A stretch of 33,539 bases of DNA from a virus, in IMG/VR virus record IMGVR_UViG_3300023181_000374, positions 1 through 33,539 of that record; one strand, written 5' to 3'. The position numbers and the translations under genes were made by a program. Numbering within the stretch: the first letter of the stretch is position 1; every line of letters starts with the position of its first letter. Under the pieces are notes generated by a model. It had not been told where the DNA came from. It searched no databases and worked only from the letters and a program-made list of their open reading frames with translations. Positions 22,977 to 33,539 of this stretch are shown piece after piece.

Positions 22977-23231
22977 ATGGGCGAAACAGGAAAGAAAATA
23001 AGGAGAGATGATGAAATGATCATGACGGTTGCCCGTAATTTACGTAAGCATCGTATCCTAAAAGGATTAACCCAATTTGACGTGTATTATTCTTCTGGTA
23101 TAGCACCGAAACAACTTAGCGACTACGAGCTGGGTAAAGTTGACACGAACATTTCTACTCTTTCTGCGTTAGCAAAAGCATACGGCATCACCATGAGCCA
23201 GTTATTTGAAGAAGAAATAGACAAGCAATAA
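22977..23231 (+). CDS. XRE-family HTH regulator
   Basis: An 84-aa protein that is nearly all a Cro/CI-type helix-turn-helix: ARNLRKHRILKGLTQFDVYYSSGIAPKQLSDYELG then a helix ending in AKAYGITMSQLFEEE. It is the only plus-strand gene within the early region and splits the minus-strand early genes. Its promoter region is shared with the 90/122-aa pair and carries an inverted repeat, suggesting that it represses them, itself, or both. It could be a second switch for middle genes or an accessory 'moron'. The HTH call is firm; the target is inferred. Confidence 0.85.
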   Translation: MGETGKKIRRDDEMIMTVARNLRKHRILKGLTQFDVYYSSGIAPKQLSDYELGKVDTNISTLSALAKAYGITMSQLFEEEIDKQ

Positions 23232-23288: not shown

Positions 23289-23699
23289 TTAAACACTTGT
23301 TAAATGGTATTCATAAGCGTTCACAAATTGAGTAACTAATATCGGCAACTCAGTCTTATAATTATGATCATCCAATCTCTTTTTAAAGGAACCATATTTC
23401 AAACACCAGGAATTGACCCTCTTCATATCTATCTTACCGCCTGGAAGCTCCCAGCCCATTTCATGAGCCATACTTAATATCTTATTAGTCATCCTATCTT
23501 TTGCACTCTCTTCTATCTTTAATTCCTTTTTAAGATGCTGTATAAGCTCACTAGCCTGATGAAAGTATAATTCTTTAGTCGTTGTAGTTCTTTCATCACT
23601 AAAGCTCCATATAAGGGCTGCTTTAGCGTCTACTGAATAATTCAGTTTGGCGACCATTGCTCCAATGGCTCCGTTTTGTGCAGTCGTGCTGAATGTCAT
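23289..23699 (-). CDS. GemA-like (Mu gp16) early regulatory protein candidate
   Basis: I use the ATG at 23699 (136 aa); a TTG two codons upstream is less likely. The protein has a pattern I associate with GemA / DUF1018-type proteins of Bacteroidota Mu-like phages: an ALIWSFSDERTTTTKEL helix-turn, an 'ASELIQHLKKEL' helix, and a C-terminal half with MAHEMGWEL, MKRVNSWCLKYGSFKK and LPILVTQFVNAYEYHL. GemA in Mu modulates host gene expression and DNA relaxation. It is the last gene of the early operon before a terminator and probably shares the promoter ahead of the LuxR-type gene. Similarity to GemA is by position and local pattern only. Confidence 0.55.
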   Translation of the reverse strand: MTFSTTAQNGAIGAMVAKLNYSVDAKAALIWSFSDERTTTTKELYFHQASELIQHLKKELKIEESAKDRMTNKILSMAHEMGWELPGGKIDMKRVNSWCLKYGSFKKRLDDHNYKTELPILVTQFVNAYEYHLTSV

Positions 23700-23708
23700 A
23701 TCCAAAAA

Positions 23709-23915
23709 TTATTTAATTGATTTCTTTTTCTTTTGCTTCGCCAGGATAACGGCAAGGTGAAACATTGTGTTAGCGTTATATTTTTCTCTTATTCTCTTTA
23801 ATGCTTTTTCTACGGAACTAAGGCTGTTTGGCTTAATGCCCTCTGATTGTAGCAGTTCAGCTATTTCTATTTGGTTCTTACCCTCAAAGAGGTATTTAAT
23901 CAATAATTCTTCCAT
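23709..23915 (-). CDS. LuxR-type HTH protein (DNA-binding domain only)
   Basis: A 68-aa protein that is little more than a GerE/LuxR-type helix-turn-helix: a Glu-rich helix, KNQIEIAELLQSEGIKP, then the recognition part SSVEKALKRIREKYNANTMFHLAV and a Lys-rich tail. A stand-alone LuxR DNA-binding domain needs no signal domain. The ATG lies 4 bp from a TATATTTG -7 box that overlaps a copy of the prophage repressor operator (23925-23940), so it seems to be directly repressed in the lysogen. It may activate middle or late genes. Confidence 0.75.
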   Translation of the reverse strand: MEELLIKYLFEGKNQIEIAELLQSEGIKPNSLSSVEKALKRIREKYNANTMFHLAVILAKQKKKKSIK

Positions 23916-23919
23916 GCTT

Positions 23920-23940
23920 CAAATATAGATACGTGTCTAA
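23920..23940 (-). promoter_or_regulatory. Repressor-type operator and -7 box upstream of the LuxR-type gene
   Basis: ATAGAT-ACGT-GTCTAA (23925-23940) has the same 6-4-6 layout as the sites at the switch, and the 12 bases CAAATATAGATA (23920-23931) are identical to those at 32558-32569. On the minus strand they contain TATATTTG, a consensus -7 box, overlapped by one operator arm. No good -33 box is seen. Transcription would start almost at the ATG (near-leaderless mRNA). Confidence 0.6.
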
Positions 23941-23949
23941 TTTATACTT

Positions 23950-23963
23950 TACGGTTTTCCGTA
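23950..23963. promoter_or_regulatory. Inverted repeat, possible regulator site
   Basis: TACGG-TTTT-CCGTA forms a perfect 5-4-5 inverted repeat 10 bp upstream of the repressor-type operator, within the gap between the O-like and LuxR-type genes. It lies at the distance where a -33 box should be, so an activator could bind here. It has no U-run and is too short for a clear terminator. Confidence 0.35.
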
Positions 23964-23976
23964 TAATATTGAATTT

Positions 23977-24402
23977 TTATAAACCTCTCCAGTCAGTTTC
24001 AAAAAACGAAGACCTGATGTATTTTTCAGGATCGGCAATCGCCCTGTTGTTATTTTTACAATAGCGCAAATAAGGTTTGATAGCTACCATTGCCAGCAAT
24101 TTTTCTTCCTGGCTGAGCTTGTTGTACAAAGGCTCTGCACGCTTCCTGTTAATCTTCTTACCGTAAGCCACCCAAAAGGCATCAAAGCTTACATCCATCG
24201 GCACCTCTTCCAGGGGAACCTTAGCCTTATGTGCAATCGCTTTCAATTCTGCCAGATTATAGGGCATATGTGCAATTTGCCACTGTAGGGCACGGGTATC
24301 TAATTCCATCTCGTTATGGTAATATATCAGTACATCATCGTCGTTAAATCCGAATATTGTACTGCCACCAACCGTGTGAGAGGTAAGTATGTATTTTCTC
24401 AT
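23977..24402 (-). CDS. Replication protein O C-terminal-like protein
   Basis: A 141-aa protein. Residues ~70-141 have the pattern FDAFWVAYGKKINRKRAEPLYNKLSQEE, then 'AMVAIKPYLRYC', and a closing PEKYIRSSFFETDWRGL. This 'FW-x-YGKK-x-RA-x-W/Y-x-KL ... P-x-x-YL-x-x-x-x-W' motif is common at the C-terminus of phage replication initiators and helicase-loader-like proteins. The N-terminal 70 residues are unfamiliar. It lies one base after the RecA-like ATPase gene, so the two likely work together. Its role in a transposing phage is unclear. Confidence 0.55.
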   Translation of the reverse strand: MRKYILTSHTVGGSTIFGFNDDDVLIYYHNEMELDTRALQWQIAHMPYNLAELKAIAHKAKVPLEEVPMDVSFDAFWVAYGKKINRKRAEPLYNKLSQEEKLLAMVAIKPYLRYCKNNNRAIADPEKYIRSSFFETDWRGL

Positions 24403-29078: not shown

Positions 29079-29416
29079 TATAAACCTCCTTGTTGACTTT
29101 TTGCTATTTTCCTATTAAGCTGTTGACCTCTTTTTCTGCGTGCCCTAAGTGCCTCCACAATCATTTTAAAACCGTCACCCTGCTGAATCCACATCAGAAG
29201 ATCATTGATTAGAAACTGATCTTGAATCAGCATATCCAACATTTCAGGAGCAGCAGCGATCAGGCGAGCATTAGACCATTCTTTTTCAGTCAGTAAATCC
29301 TGATCGTTATCTGCAACTACTTCACAGATATATGCTTTACCTGGAGCCTGAATAATCAGGGAAGAAGGTGATTCAGGAACTATTTCCCAGTCACCGTGTG
29401 TGTGCGTAAATTCCAT
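29078..29416 (-). CDS. Unknown 112-aa early protein
   Basis: A 112-aa protein with a beta-rich first half and an NARLIAAAPEMLDMLI helix in the second, a motif seen in many small phage early proteins of unknown function. The C-terminal ~25 residues are strongly basic. It is the first gene after MuB (ATG overlapping the MuB stop by one base) and thus always co-expressed with the transposition genes. No biochemical role is known. Confidence 0.6.
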   Translation of the reverse strand: MEFTHTHGDWEIVPESPSSLIIQAPGKAYICEVVADNDQDLLTEKEWSNARLIAAAPEMLDMLIQDQFLINDLLMWIQQGDGFKMIVEALRARRKRGQQLNRKIAKSQQGGL

Positions 29417-30255
29417 TATGCTGCTGATTTAAGTTTTTTAGCATGAACCAGACGCTTAACCCTACGTACATCACCATCACTATCATTGTGAATCTCAGTG
29501 CACATTAATTGCTCAGTAATGCCATTTGCATTGATGATAGAGAATATTGATTTCTTGCTGTATTTAGGCAGGTGTATGAATCTTCGCCCCAACCTGCTAT
29601 AGATTTCAGCATATCCCTTTTTACCTTGTGCTATCCCTTTCAGAATGCGTTTTTCAAGTTGCTCAGTTGCAATCAGGATAATTCCAGATTTATCCTGGAG
29701 CTTATTATATAAGGTAATAAAGAAGTACAAAACAGAATCGGAAAGCTTATCGGCCTCGTCAAAGACTAATAACGGCTTATCGGCTTTATTAACGATTGTT
29801 GTAATGGTGGTCATCATCTGGGAGAGTGAGACACCACCGCTATCCTTACCCATCATAGTCAGCAGCTCCGCTAAAAACGTTGTCCGGTTAAAATAGTCCG
29901 CACATGATACTACGAATACATTTTCCTCATTACTGAACATGCTTGTAACCTCAGTTTTGCCATATCCAGCCTCGGCACAGATACCATATACATTGGCATT
30001 TTCCTTAGCATCTACTAAAAAGTTGTTTAGTAGCTTTGATTCTGGTGTCTCAACAAACACCCATTCATGATTCACTTTTAGCTTTTTTTCAACAGTCCTA
30101 AATAGGTCATCACTAATCTTTTCCCACTTTCCAGCAAGCATATGGCTGATTGTGGCTGATGAAATACCGATTTTGTGAGCTGCTTTGTTTCCGCTTGTTG
30201 CATCAACTTCTTTGCGTAGTTGGGTTACAATGTGTTCTTTTGTGATGTTTTCCAT
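29416..30255 (-). CDS. MuB-like transposition target-selection ATPase
   Basis: A 279-aa MuB homologue. The N-terminal ~55 residues are a helix-turn-helix of the XRE type (KAAHKIGISSATISHMLAG). The AAA+ core follows: Walker A in AEAGYGKTE (Lys100), Walker B LLVFDEAD (162-169), then ILIATEQLEKR with a sensor-like Thr and an arginine-rich RLGRRFIHL that may hold an arginine finger. MuB forms ATP-dependent filaments on target DNA, activates MuA and gives target immunity. It directly follows MuA (56-bp gap with a hairpin). Confidence 0.88.
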   Translation of the reverse strand: MENITKEHIVTQLRKEVDATSGNKAAHKIGISSATISHMLAGKWEKISDDLFRTVEKKLKVNHEWVFVETPESKLLNNFLVDAKENANVYGICAEAGYGKTEVTSMFSNEENVFVVSCADYFNRTTFLAELLTMMGKDSGGVSLSQMMTTITTIVNKADKPLLVFDEADKLSDSVLYFFITLYNKLQDKSGIILIATEQLEKRILKGIAQGKKGYAEIYSRLGRRFIHLPKYSKKSIFSIINANGITEQLMCTEIHNDSDGDVRRVKRLVHAKKLKSAA

Positions 30256-30311: not shown

Positions 30312-32294
30312 TTACATATAGTTTGATATATCATCATCAGGCTCCGGCTCGTCGTATCCACCAGCAGCAATATTACCTGCAAAGTGTGAAAGCTCTTTAG
30401 GCACTGCGACACCAGCCTGGAGCCAACTAGCAGCATCAATCCTGCTACGGGAAAGTAGGTCAACCCTATCTTTCATCTTGGTAGTTATGCCCAGCATCAT
30501 TTTCGTTTTGTCTTCAAGCAGGTTATTTAAGCGCTCCCCATCACCAGCCTTGCGGTCTGCAAGTGCAGCAGGGACATTCTGATATTTATCAGCAATAAAA
30601 TTGATTGCGTTACCATCAGTGACTAGCACCTGATCCATGTTGCCAGGCAAATAAACTACCTGGAAGGATTTACCCACATTTTGCAGGTATTGTGCATCTG
30701 GAACGTCATAAACAAACTTGTGCTTGTTGATTTCAAACGACATACCTTCAGCAGTGATCCGTACAGGGTTCTTATGAGTAAGACCGAAAAGCTGTATTCT
30801 CTTCTCTGTACTGATTTGTCTTTTTTTGCTTAGCTCAGAGGCATTAAAAGCAGTAATCCATTCTTGTTGGCGGGGAATGCCAGTTTTTGCGTTCACTGTT
30901 TGACGCATGTTGTGAACGAAATGTTCAACAACGTTCAGAGCCTGGTCAGCGGAGGGATAATTTTTCTTAAGTGCCAGGATCATATCAGGATTTGTCTTCT
31001 CCTTAGCTGTCACGTTGTGACCAGCATAGTTATCGTATGGAAGTAGCTTTAATTCTTGATGCCAGATAGTTCCGAAAGACTGTTCAATACGTTTTGTCTG
31101 TGAAGCCTTAACGGTACCAGGGGTGAAGTGAGCAAGTGATTTAAAATAGCTCGCAAGCTCACCTTTCAATTGTTTATCAATTGCCCAGCGGTCTGATTGT
31201 ATCTGATTAAACAGGTAATTACCGCCAGTTATTTCGATAATATGCTCCATTGCATTGCGGAATGCAGCGTATATAAGGTCTTTAGTAACAGTTTCGGCAA
31301 TTGCGTAACCTAGTATATAATCATTGTAATAATCCTTAACAACGTACATAGCAACCCTATACTGCTCATTTACGACCTTATTTCCCTTTTTATCGGTGGT
31401 TTCCTTGCGGAAATATAAATCCAGAATATTATCATCACACATAGCCATTAAAAGGGGCGCTGATGGACGATCACTATGAATTTGCTTACTGTATTTCGTG
31501 TAATTAGCGCCTACGCCATTGCGTTGCATAGTGATTAAATGTTCATTCTGCTTTCTGCGATAGCCTACAGTAGCAGGGCTGATAGTTAGACGACCGTTAG
31601 CAGTTGCCCATTTATTGTATTGGATAGCTATAATGGTGTCATCATGCTGATTGTGGTGTCCAATCATTTCCAGAAGCAAAGCTTCCGCAACATCATCTTT
31701 TACCTTTTTGCGGTTATCGTTACCAAAGCGCCAGGCTTCGATTAAGCTGGAGTATTTACACTCAGCAGTATTATATTTAGTCAGCTTGTTTTTCAGTGAC
31801 CTGGTATTTATAGGTAAGGCAACGTTTTTTGCCCTGATAACGGCAGTTGCAGCTTCCCAAAACTCTGTGATTGTTATGTTTAATTGGCGTTTAAGCGCCC
31901 TTTTATCAGTTGTAAAGACATTTAAAGTCTTTAGCCAGCTAGCAGCCTCAGTATATTTCTTTCTGTACTCTTCAGGAAGGCTCAGACTGGCATCATGGGG
32001 TAAAGTATAAGTGTCGTAGAATGATTCAGCAACATAATCCCAGTTAATTAGTACTTGCTCCAAAATTGGCTCTTTAGCTAAGTACTCATACGGATTACCG
32101 TATTCTTTAACTACTAATTCTTTATATTTTGGCGGCATGCTTTCAAATGAAATTAAAATTTCACGACCGTTACCGCCTACACCAAAGACCTTAAAGTTAC
32201 CCCGCTGTCTATTTTTACTATATGTCTCTTTTGACATAAGCTTTGGGACAACTTCATCAAATTCAAGACAAATCAAATTTTCGTGGAATCGCAT
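30312..32294 (-). CDS. MuA-like DDE transposase
   Basis: A 660-aa transposase. The N-terminal ~150 residues are winged-helix/HTH-type end- and enhancer-binding modules (MRFHENLICLEFDEVV ...). The catalytic core holds the DDE triad: Asp287 (or 288) in MCDDNILDLYF, Asp368 in QSDRWAID, and Glu404 in RIEQSFG, spaced ~80 and 35 residues. A beta-barrel domain follows (~490-560), and a basic C-terminal tail (~590-660) that in Mu contacts MuB and ClpX. It cuts and joins the prophage ends for integration and replication. Length and order next to MuB agree with Mu (663 aa). It starts 2 bp after the Ner-like stop. Confidence 0.92.
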   Translation of the reverse strand: MRFHENLICLEFDEVVPKLMSKETYSKNRQRGNFKVFGVGGNGREILISFESMPPKYKELVVKEYGNPYEYLAKEPILEQVLINWDYVAESFYDTYTLPHDASLSLPEEYRKKYTEAASWLKTLNVFTTDKRALKRQLNITITEFWEAATAVIRAKNVALPINTRSLKNKLTKYNTAECKYSSLIEAWRFGNDNRKKVKDDVAEALLLEMIGHHNQHDDTIIAIQYNKWATANGRLTISPATVGYRRKQNEHLITMQRNGVGANYTKYSKQIHSDRPSAPLLMAMCDDNILDLYFRKETTDKKGNKVVNEQYRVAMYVVKDYYNDYILGYAIAETVTKDLIYAAFRNAMEHIIEITGGNYLFNQIQSDRWAIDKQLKGELASYFKSLAHFTPGTVKASQTKRIEQSFGTIWHQELKLLPYDNYAGHNVTAKEKTNPDMILALKKNYPSADQALNVVEHFVHNMRQTVNAKTGIPRQQEWITAFNASELSKKRQISTEKRIQLFGLTHKNPVRITAEGMSFEINKHKFVYDVPDAQYLQNVGKSFQVVYLPGNMDQVLVTDGNAINFIADKYQNVPAALADRKAGDGERLNNLLEDKTKMMLGITTKMKDRVDLLSRSRIDAASWLQAGVAVPKELSHFAGNIAAGGYDEPEPDDDISNYM

Positions 32295-32296
32295 AC

Positions 32297-32539
32297 TTAA
32301 AATTTAATATGTTTAACTAATTCTTGAATGAGCACACTTGACCCAGCTTCATACATCTCGTCAAACAGCTTGACTTTTTGTCCTAATAGTGTTGCGTCTG
32401 TCCTGTTGCCAGTCCTTACTTTTTTAACCGAGCTTTCAGAACATCCTAAGACAGTTGCTACATGTTTTGCAGCTACTGGCGGAACCTCAATATTATTTTT
32501 GGTACAAATGGTTTTATTATTATTATTTTTGATTCTCAT
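32297..32539 (-). CDS. Ner/Cro-like early HTH regulator
   Basis: An 80-aa basic protein with a central helix-turn-helix (VAAKHVATVLGCSESSVKKVRTG) and a C-terminal helix. It begins with a low-complexity Asn run (NNNN, from AAT repeats). Divergent from the repressor and first in the transposase operon, it occupies the place of Mu ner, which turns down early and repressor transcription. The promoter at 32558-32588 with an overlapping operator drives it. Alternatively, it may be part of the enhancer-binding apparatus. The HTH is clear, the exact role inferred. Confidence 0.75.
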   Translation of the reverse strand: MRIKNNNNKTICTKNNIEVPPVAAKHVATVLGCSESSVKKVRTGNRTDATLLGQKVKLFDEMYEAGSSVLIQELVKHIKF

Positions 32540-32557: not shown

Positions 32558-32588
32558 CAAATATAGATATATGTCTATAAAAAACAAA
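32558..32588 (-). promoter_or_regulatory. Early (ner-A-B) promoter
   Basis: Minus strand: TTTG (complement of 32585-32588), a 19-bp spacer, and TATATTTG (complement of 32558-32565). Both boxes match the Bacteroidota TTTG / TAnnTTTG consensus exactly. The predicted transcript would start ~12 bases before the ner-like ATG (32539). The operator at 32563-32578 covers the -7 box and spacer, so its occupation should shut the promoter. Confidence 0.75.
32563..32578. promoter_or_regulatory. Candidate repressor operator O1
   Basis: ATAGAT-ATAT-GTCTAT, an inverted repeat with 6-base arms and 4-base spacer, overlapping the early promoter -7 box. It shares its layout with O2 (32594), O3 (32796) and the distant site at 23925. 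Confidence 0.6.
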
Positions 32589-32593
32589 TAAAT

Positions 32594-32609
32594 TTAGATA
32601 AATGTCGAA
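32594..32609. promoter_or_regulatory. Candidate repressor operator O2
   Basis: TTAGAT-AAAT-GTCGAA: same 6-4-6 layout as O1, 31 bp (about three helical turns) from it, and 10 bp upstream of the repressor ATG. It overlaps a weak TAAATTTA (32589-32596) that might serve as the repressor's own -7 box, so it would allow autoregulation. Confidence 0.5.
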
Positions 32610-32618
32610 ATTAATAAA

Positions 32619-33539
32619 ATGAGCGAAACCAGGGCAATAGACAGGCTAGTTATATATCTGAGACACAAGGGTATAAGCAACTCAGGAGCAGAAAAGCAAC
32701 TAGGTTTAGCGAATAGCTATATCCAAAATTCGTCTAAAGAAGGTCGTACGGGCGCTATTAATAGTGATATTTTGTCTAAAATTGAGGAAACATATTTAGA
32801 CTTATGTCTAATGTGGTTAATAAAAGAAAAGGGACAAATGATTCAAATCGGTGAAGAAATTAACGCATTTACCCCCCTAGCTACAGACACTAAACAACAC
32901 ACAAACCTACCCCTTAACCTACAAAATACATACAATAAAGACACTAGTTATGTCCACCCAACTGTCCACCCAACTGTCCACCCAACTTATAATTTAGGCA
33001 CTCCTCACGTAGTTACAATTGATACAAGCGGCATGAATACAATACCATTAGTGGGCATCAAAGCAGCAGCTGGATACCTGAATGGTTACGCTGATCCAGA
33101 GTTTATCGGTGAACTGCCGACTTACTGTATACCAGGGTTAAATAGCAGAACTTTTAGAGCGTTTGAAGTGGATGGAGATAGCATGACTCCCACTGTTAGA
33201 AGAGGAGATATATTATTTTGTCAGTGGCTGGAAAATGTAAGTGACATACGAGATGGAAGAGTGTATGTAATAGTTACTAAAACGCTCGGAATCGTGGTTA
33301 AAAGGCTTTTAAACCGTATTAACGAATATGGTTTTATCATCGCTAAATCTGACTCTACAGATAACAGAATCGAATATCCAAACATCAATGTACCATTAGA
33401 AGAAGTTGTTGAAATATGGTATCCAAGGCTCTATATGAGTGCCAGTTTCCAAGCACCAACAGACATGTATAAAAGGATTAACGATCTTGAAGCAGGATTA
33501 GAATACCTGTTAATGAAAGACAAAAAAGCAATCCAGTAA
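32619..33539 (+). CDS. S24-family self-cleaving phage repressor
   Basis: A 306-aa CI/LexA-type repressor. The N-terminal ~75 residues hold a helix-turn-helix-like region (SNSGAEKQLGLANSYIQNSS). A Thr/His/Pro-rich hinge (~80-135) contains VHPT three times. The C-terminal S24 peptidase domain has the Ala151-Gly152 cleavage site (AAAGYL), nucleophile Ser188 (GDSMTP) and Lys228 (GIVVKRL). The RecA-stimulated cut should induce the prophage on DNA damage, unlike the Mu repressor c, which is not S24. The gene diverges from the ner-A-B operon and carries candidate operators upstream (O1, O2) and inside its coding region (O3). The start ATG follows an AT-rich leader. Confidence 0.88.
   Translation: MSETRAIDRLVIYLRHKGISNSGAEKQLGLANSYIQNSSKEGRTGAINSDILSKIEETYLDLCLMWLIKEKGQMIQIGEEINAFTPLATDTKQHTNLPLNLQNTYNKDTSYVHPTVHPTVHPTYNLGTPHVVTIDTSGMNTIPLVGIKAAAGYLNGYADPEFIGELPTYCIPGLNSRTFRAFEVDGDSMTPTVRRGDILFCQWLENVSDIRDGRVYVIVTKTLGIVVKRLLNRINEYGFIIAKSDSTDNRIEYPNINVPLEEVVEIWYPRLYMSASFQAPTDMYKRINDLEAGLEYLLMKDKKAIQ
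32796..32811. promoter_or_regulatory. Candidate repressor operator O3 (inside the repressor gene)
   Basis: TTAGAC-TTAT-GTCTAA, a perfect 6-4-6 inverted repeat within the repressor coding region (codons ~60-65). It has the same layout as O1, O2 and the distant site. A loop between O3 and O1/O2 is possible (~190-220 bp apart). Confidence 0.5.
32952..32987 (+). repeat. Three perfect 12-bp tandem repeats in the repressor hinge
   Basis: GTCCACCCAACT occurs three times in a row without mismatch, encoding VHPT x3 between the DNA-binding and peptidase domains. The unit is a multiple of three, so gain or loss of copies keeps the frame and changes only the hinge length. Confidence 0.9.

Follow-up and report, generated by a model that had tools for sequence, protein, structure and literature searches.

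The window is the whole stretch of DNA that was analysed, a 33,539-base IMG/VR virus record, and it holds a Mu-like phage of Bacteroidota. MuA- and MuB-type genes lie beside a repressor gene and a ner-like gene, in an order that is conserved in relatives, as expected of a Mu-like transposable phage (Table 1). The record ends at position 33539, exactly where the stop codon that closes the repressor gene ends. Therefore, the end of the phage either lies just beyond this point or was trimmed. The closest relatives found are Sphingobacteriaceae prophages. The best of these is L038, whose genus group also includes the Pedobacter borealis genome G012. With the MuA protein as query, a search of viral contigs returned no match, and a search of viral contigs for the exact operator plus box described below found 31 contigs, none of which encodes a related ner, A, B, or repressor protein. 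Far from the repressor, a gene for a small helix-turn-helix (HTH) protein is followed by a gene that had been called GemA-like. That name reflected position only, because the gene matched no Pfam or PHROG gem family, and we refer to it here as the gem-position gene.

Table 1. Genes and predicted control elements of the window
Feature	Position	Strand	Remark
HTH_3 protein gene	22977-23231		0.7 kb from the distal palindrome
gem-position gene	23289-23705	-	behind the HTH gene; kept in relatives
HTH gene	23709-23915	-	68-aa free-standing LuxR/NarL-type HTH protein; phrog_6776
-7 box of HTH-gene promoter, TATATTTG	23920-23927	-	predicted +1 = 23915
Putative distal (fourth) operator, TAGATACGTGTCTA	23926-23939		predicted to span -11 to -24 relative to the HTH-gene start
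Activator-type site, perfect palindrome TACGGTTTTCCGTA	23950-23963		separated from the -7 box by exactly 22 bp
Upstream early gene (p141)	23977-24402	-	141 aa; phrog_35156; ends just short of the HTH-gene promoter
MuB-type protein	29416-30255	-	phrog_296
MuA-type transposase	30312-32294	-	phrog_310
ner-like gene	32297-32539	-	first gene of the early operon; from position and tblastn in relatives
-7 box of early (ner-A-B) promoter, TATATTTG	32558-32565	-	
Operator O1	32564-32577		over the early promoter; exact palindrome copy
Operator O2	32595-32608		one mismatch; between O1 and the repressor gene
CI/LexA-like repressor gene	32619-33539	+	S24 peptidase domain; divergent from the ner-like gene
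Operator O3	32797-32810		one mismatch; within the repressor gene

The first-pass annotation had proposed that a fourth copy of the switch operator precedes the HTH gene, and the alignment agrees with this. Positions 23920 to 23940 (CAAATATAGATACGTGTCTAA) and 32558 to 32578 (CAAATATAGATATATGTCTAT) are identical at 18 of 21 bases, and the mismatches fall at the two central positions and at the final base, as had been described. The shared element is a 14-bp inverted repeat, TAGAYA-N2-TRTCTA, which sits in equal register over the TATATTTG -7 box at both sites. At the HTH gene this box is 4 nt before the ATG, so the claimed overlap of operator and box also holds. The sequence TAGAYANNTRTCTA occurs without mismatch only at 23926 to 23939 and 32564 to 32577 in the 33.5 kb, and both copies are on promoters. 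Two further copies carry one mismatch each, one of them inside the repressor gene, which makes four in all. Under a first-order Markov model, the window is expected to have 0.01 palindromes per strand, and about 1.5e-4 occurrences of the register TAGAYANNTRTCTANNTTTG over both strands. We conclude that the S24 repressor of the phage most likely uses 23926 to 23939 as an operator.

The HTH-gene promoter differs from the early promoter. In Flavobacterium psychrophilum, the -7 box occupies -12 to -5 relative to the transcription start (PMC9723704). By this box-to-start rule TACGGTTTTCCGTA is centred at -41.5, which is the class II activator position. The predicted +1 falls on the A of the ATG, so the mRNA is predicted to be leaderless; the start had been placed close by, at about 23914. 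The early promoter has a -33 TTTG at 32585 to 32588 on the minus strand, whereas the HTH-gene promoter lacks this element and has AAAG there instead. The locus had been read as a second promoter guarded by the repressor. A promoter does appear to be present, but that reading was incomplete, because it overlooked the perfect TACGG palindrome. Its location, 22 bp ahead of the box, suggests an activator-dependent promoter, not merely a second early promoter. The palindrome, the spacing, and the box are all perfect, at 16 of 16 positions of the TACGG class, and only about 4e-6 such promoters are expected in the window. Versions of the palindrome are also found at equal distance before several related HTH genes.

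The pattern TACGG-N4-CCGTA-N22-TAnnTTTG is a distinct promoter class. Among 121 TACGG-type palindromes in the fetched loci, whose genes were unselected, 24 had TAnnTTT at 22 bp (binomial p ~1e-37), and each other spacing from 10 to 39 bp was found for at most 2 of the 121. The full pattern gave 38 listed sites in 11 whole genomes versus none for the reversed pattern, and 108 stretches of viral contigs versus 7 for a pattern with a 25-bp gap. The box-to-ATG distance among the phage promoters of the class peaks at 4 nt, as in the window, so leaderless starts look common. Class sites precede host response-regulator genes, neighbours of these, and prophage gem-position genes. No mention of TACGG palindromes or of this promoter class in this context was found in the literature searched. 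In the viral contigs L121-L228 and in G010-G015, G103, G348, G435, and G454, promoters of the class are often leaderless and commonly stand in front of small accessory genes of phages and of a host two-component operon. In L133 and L150, a class promoter identified by eye lies about 100 to 120 nt upstream of an S24 repressor-like gene, so in some phages the activator may also set repressor synthesis.

Two other candidate class sites were set aside. A lambda P_RE-like antisense promoter in the transposase gene, directed toward the repressor, was considered at 32089 to 32132, where a TACGG palindrome is followed at 22 bp by a near -7 box. This site likely reflects coding constraint, because it encodes a conserved YGNPY and relatives keep the amino acids, not the bases. 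A class site seen by eye before a ComF-like gene in L017 was unconfirmed and was left out.

Genomes of Pedobacter, Chryseobacterium, and Sphingobacterium have a TPR-kinase/response-regulator operon in which a class promoter stands before the response-regulator gene. The class also precedes a few neighbours of this operon, encoding a DUF1508 protein, a DUF6232 protein, an HSDR_N-domain protein, and a PLD-like protein. Class sites before response-regulator genes were found in L015 to L018 and in the hosts of the L038, L076, and L077 prophages. In these three prophages, which have neither the HTH gene nor the operator, a class promoter is located at the gem position or shortly ahead of it. The host regulator could therefore plausibly be the activator there. 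The window is a virus record, and the regulator is known from other hosts; the likely activator for the HTH-gene promoter is such a host response regulator, the phage HTH protein, or both. The class is precisely defined, by a fixed 22-bp spacing and a leaderless start, and it connects numerous phage genes with a single candidate regulator of the host.

The HTH gene had been called LuxR-type, and the predicted fold bears this out. The model (pLDDT 87.5) has a four-helix GerE fold, and Foldseek matched it to LuxR/NarL domains with a probability of 1.00 and a TM of up to 0.75, but with E-values above 0.02. No Pfam GerE match above the cut-off was obtained for the protein, and its relative in L056 (E 0.042) also misses the cut-off. 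A PDB sequence search with the family returned mostly spurious PPR matches, and DesR only at E 0.09. The 68 residues comprise the HTH only, with no N-terminal ligand or receiver domain. Compared with the C-terminal domain of the host response regulator, the match is 34% overall, and the recognition-helix segment IKPNSLSSxEK is nearly identical. The phage locus thus shares this segment and the promoter class with the NarL/LuxR response regulators of the TPR-kinase operon in Pedobacter and Chryseobacterium. It differs from them in that the protein has no receiver and in that the promoter is predicted to be leaderless and carries the repressor operator. The HTH protein looks like the DNA-binding domain of the host regulator without its receiver, and it could act as an activator rather than a blocker. 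A candidate target of both the HTH protein and the C-terminal domain of the regulator is TACGGAAAACCGTA. A relative of the HTH protein, 54% identical, is encoded in Flavobacterium columnare phages (L004:5974-6183; 69 records), where the stretch read has no TACGG palindrome.

Mu carries mor beside its gem position. The HTH gene, which adjoins the gem position behind the early genes, occupies the same place, and the HTH protein might be a Mor-like activator of the phage's later genes that works independently of a host regulator. In L009 and L010, a second class site just behind the HTH gene would fit such a role. However, the window has no other convincing class site before a phage gene, and prophages without the HTH gene keep the class promoter. 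In addition, the HTH protein differs from Mor in having a LuxR-type fold, no match to the Mor family profile, and its own, apparently leaderless, promoter of the Bacteroidota class. We consider this role unlikely.

The comparison covered some 18 related prophages (among L038-L055, L076-L078, and L019), in stretches that reach about 12 kb beyond the transposase and, for most relatives, stop short of the late region. In these prophages, a palindrome overlaps the TAnnTTTG box of the early promoter and differs from phage to phage; examples are TAGATATATATCTA, TTACAGAATACTGTA, and TATACTTTTTTTGTATA. Each phage's own version recurs two to three times near its own repressor gene, both in the gap that separates the promoter from this gene and within the gene itself. 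This is as expected of an operator that follows its own repressor. Lysis-lysogeny control of Bacteroidota phages is little described, and the literature searched gave no account of a Mu-like repressor and its operator in Bacteroidota.

The palindrome might instead be bound by the ner-like protein, given that Mu Ner binds near the early promoter, or by the HTH_3 protein, whose gene is close to the distal copy. However, the operator differs strongly among prophages with related ner genes, and its copies lie around and inside each repressor gene. Moreover, L038 and the window have nearly the same operator with repressors that are 50% identical. Binding by either of these other proteins is therefore quite unlikely.

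None of the approximately 18 related prophages has an operator copy at the HTH/gem locus, including those that carry the same TACGG-type promoter, so the distal operator is known in one phage only. In the whole host genome of L038, the early-promoter copy is the only operator that adjoins a -7 box. Distal operators in other TACGG-class phages were also sought as spacer repeats within the same locus, and these candidates were rejected because most were AT-rich repeats of the kind expected by chance; the window pair alone was recognised on a second promoter. Of the earlier proposal that the repressor guards two promoters, one part stands, in that an operator very probably lies over a real -7 box. 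The expectation that related prophages would have a second operator before the same gene did not hold, and no relative shares the design.

An operator inside the repressor gene is found in nearly all relatives (L038-L055 and L019), about 184 to 233 bp from the early-promoter operator (290 in L050). It is written in each phage's own operator sequence despite the differing coding. Such a pattern points to DNA looping or to a roadblock on that gene.

The reading that we prefer, and hold to be probable, is that the operator of the S24 repressor covers the -7 box in a class promoter that is separate and leaderless and would drive the HTH and gem-position genes under AND-NOT control with a host-type activator. 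The sequence itself shows the copy of the operator and its register, the promoter class with its spacing, and the protein relationship; from these we infer binding, repression, activation, and autoregulation. In the lysogen, repressor bound over -11 to -24 would hold the HTH-gene promoter off. An activator bound at -41.5 would replace the missing -33 contact, and once the repressor was cleaved with the activator present, the promoter could fire. The HTH protein may then sustain its own promoter. In this scenario, the HTH gene probably needs release of the switch and the host-type activator simultaneously, and one added operator can bring a class promoter under prophage control. During lytic growth, transcripts that run on from the early operon probably contribute to HTH-gene expression. 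Repression at the HTH-gene promoter may matter little after induction, because the early operon, being on the same strand, could read through.

Read-through might even be the only source of HTH-gene expression, with the promoter-like elements as inactive relics. The HTH gene is on the strand of the early genes and closely packed with them, and in L041, L042, L044, and L045 the gem-position gene directly follows p141 with no promoter between. However, a perfect match in palindrome, 22-bp spacing, and box, at the low expectation given above, makes relics quite unlikely. Chance similarity, or a by-product of the shared -7 box consensus, is very improbable: 8 of the 18 matches are due to TATATTTG alone, but the palindrome in this register is hardly expected, its two exact copies in 33.5 kb are both promoter-borne, and TAGACA-N2-TATCTA is in the spacer of none of the other class promoters listed.

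A wider proposal is more tentative, and we put it at slightly less than even. A Bacteroidota host two-component regulon may have been colonised by phages, many of whose accessory genes carry the -41.5 site and a leaderless promoter, while some phages carry the regulator's DNA-binding domain as a free gene. In the window, a repressor operator on top would form an AND-NOT gate of host state and lysogeny.

Phage repressors with operators scattered over the genome are known from P1 (C1) and mycobacteriophage L5 (Gp71). The window resembles them in having a prophage repressor site far from the immunity region. It differs in that there is a single distal site, absent in relatives, over a host-type, activator-dependent promoter. 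Phage LuxR-type regulators are also known from phage induction modules, in VP882 (VqmA) and in the XRE-LuxR-smORF modules of ARM81ld and Apop (PMC10432266). Like these, the window combines a temperate phage, a CI-like repressor of the autoproteolytic type, and a host-related LuxR-type regulator. However, its protein is a bare 68-aa DNA-binding domain with no ligand or receiver domain. In contrast to ARM81ld and Apop, no anti-repressor smORF was identified in the window, and the HTH gene itself is apparently repressor-controlled. Distant operators and phage LuxR-type regulators are thus already known; new here is the placement of a predicted repressor operator within a leaderless promoter of host type that depends on an activator. 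In a separate arrangement (L010:9992-10706, and likewise in L013), a second class site comes after the HTH gene, together with a gene whose product looks by eye like an amidase effector.
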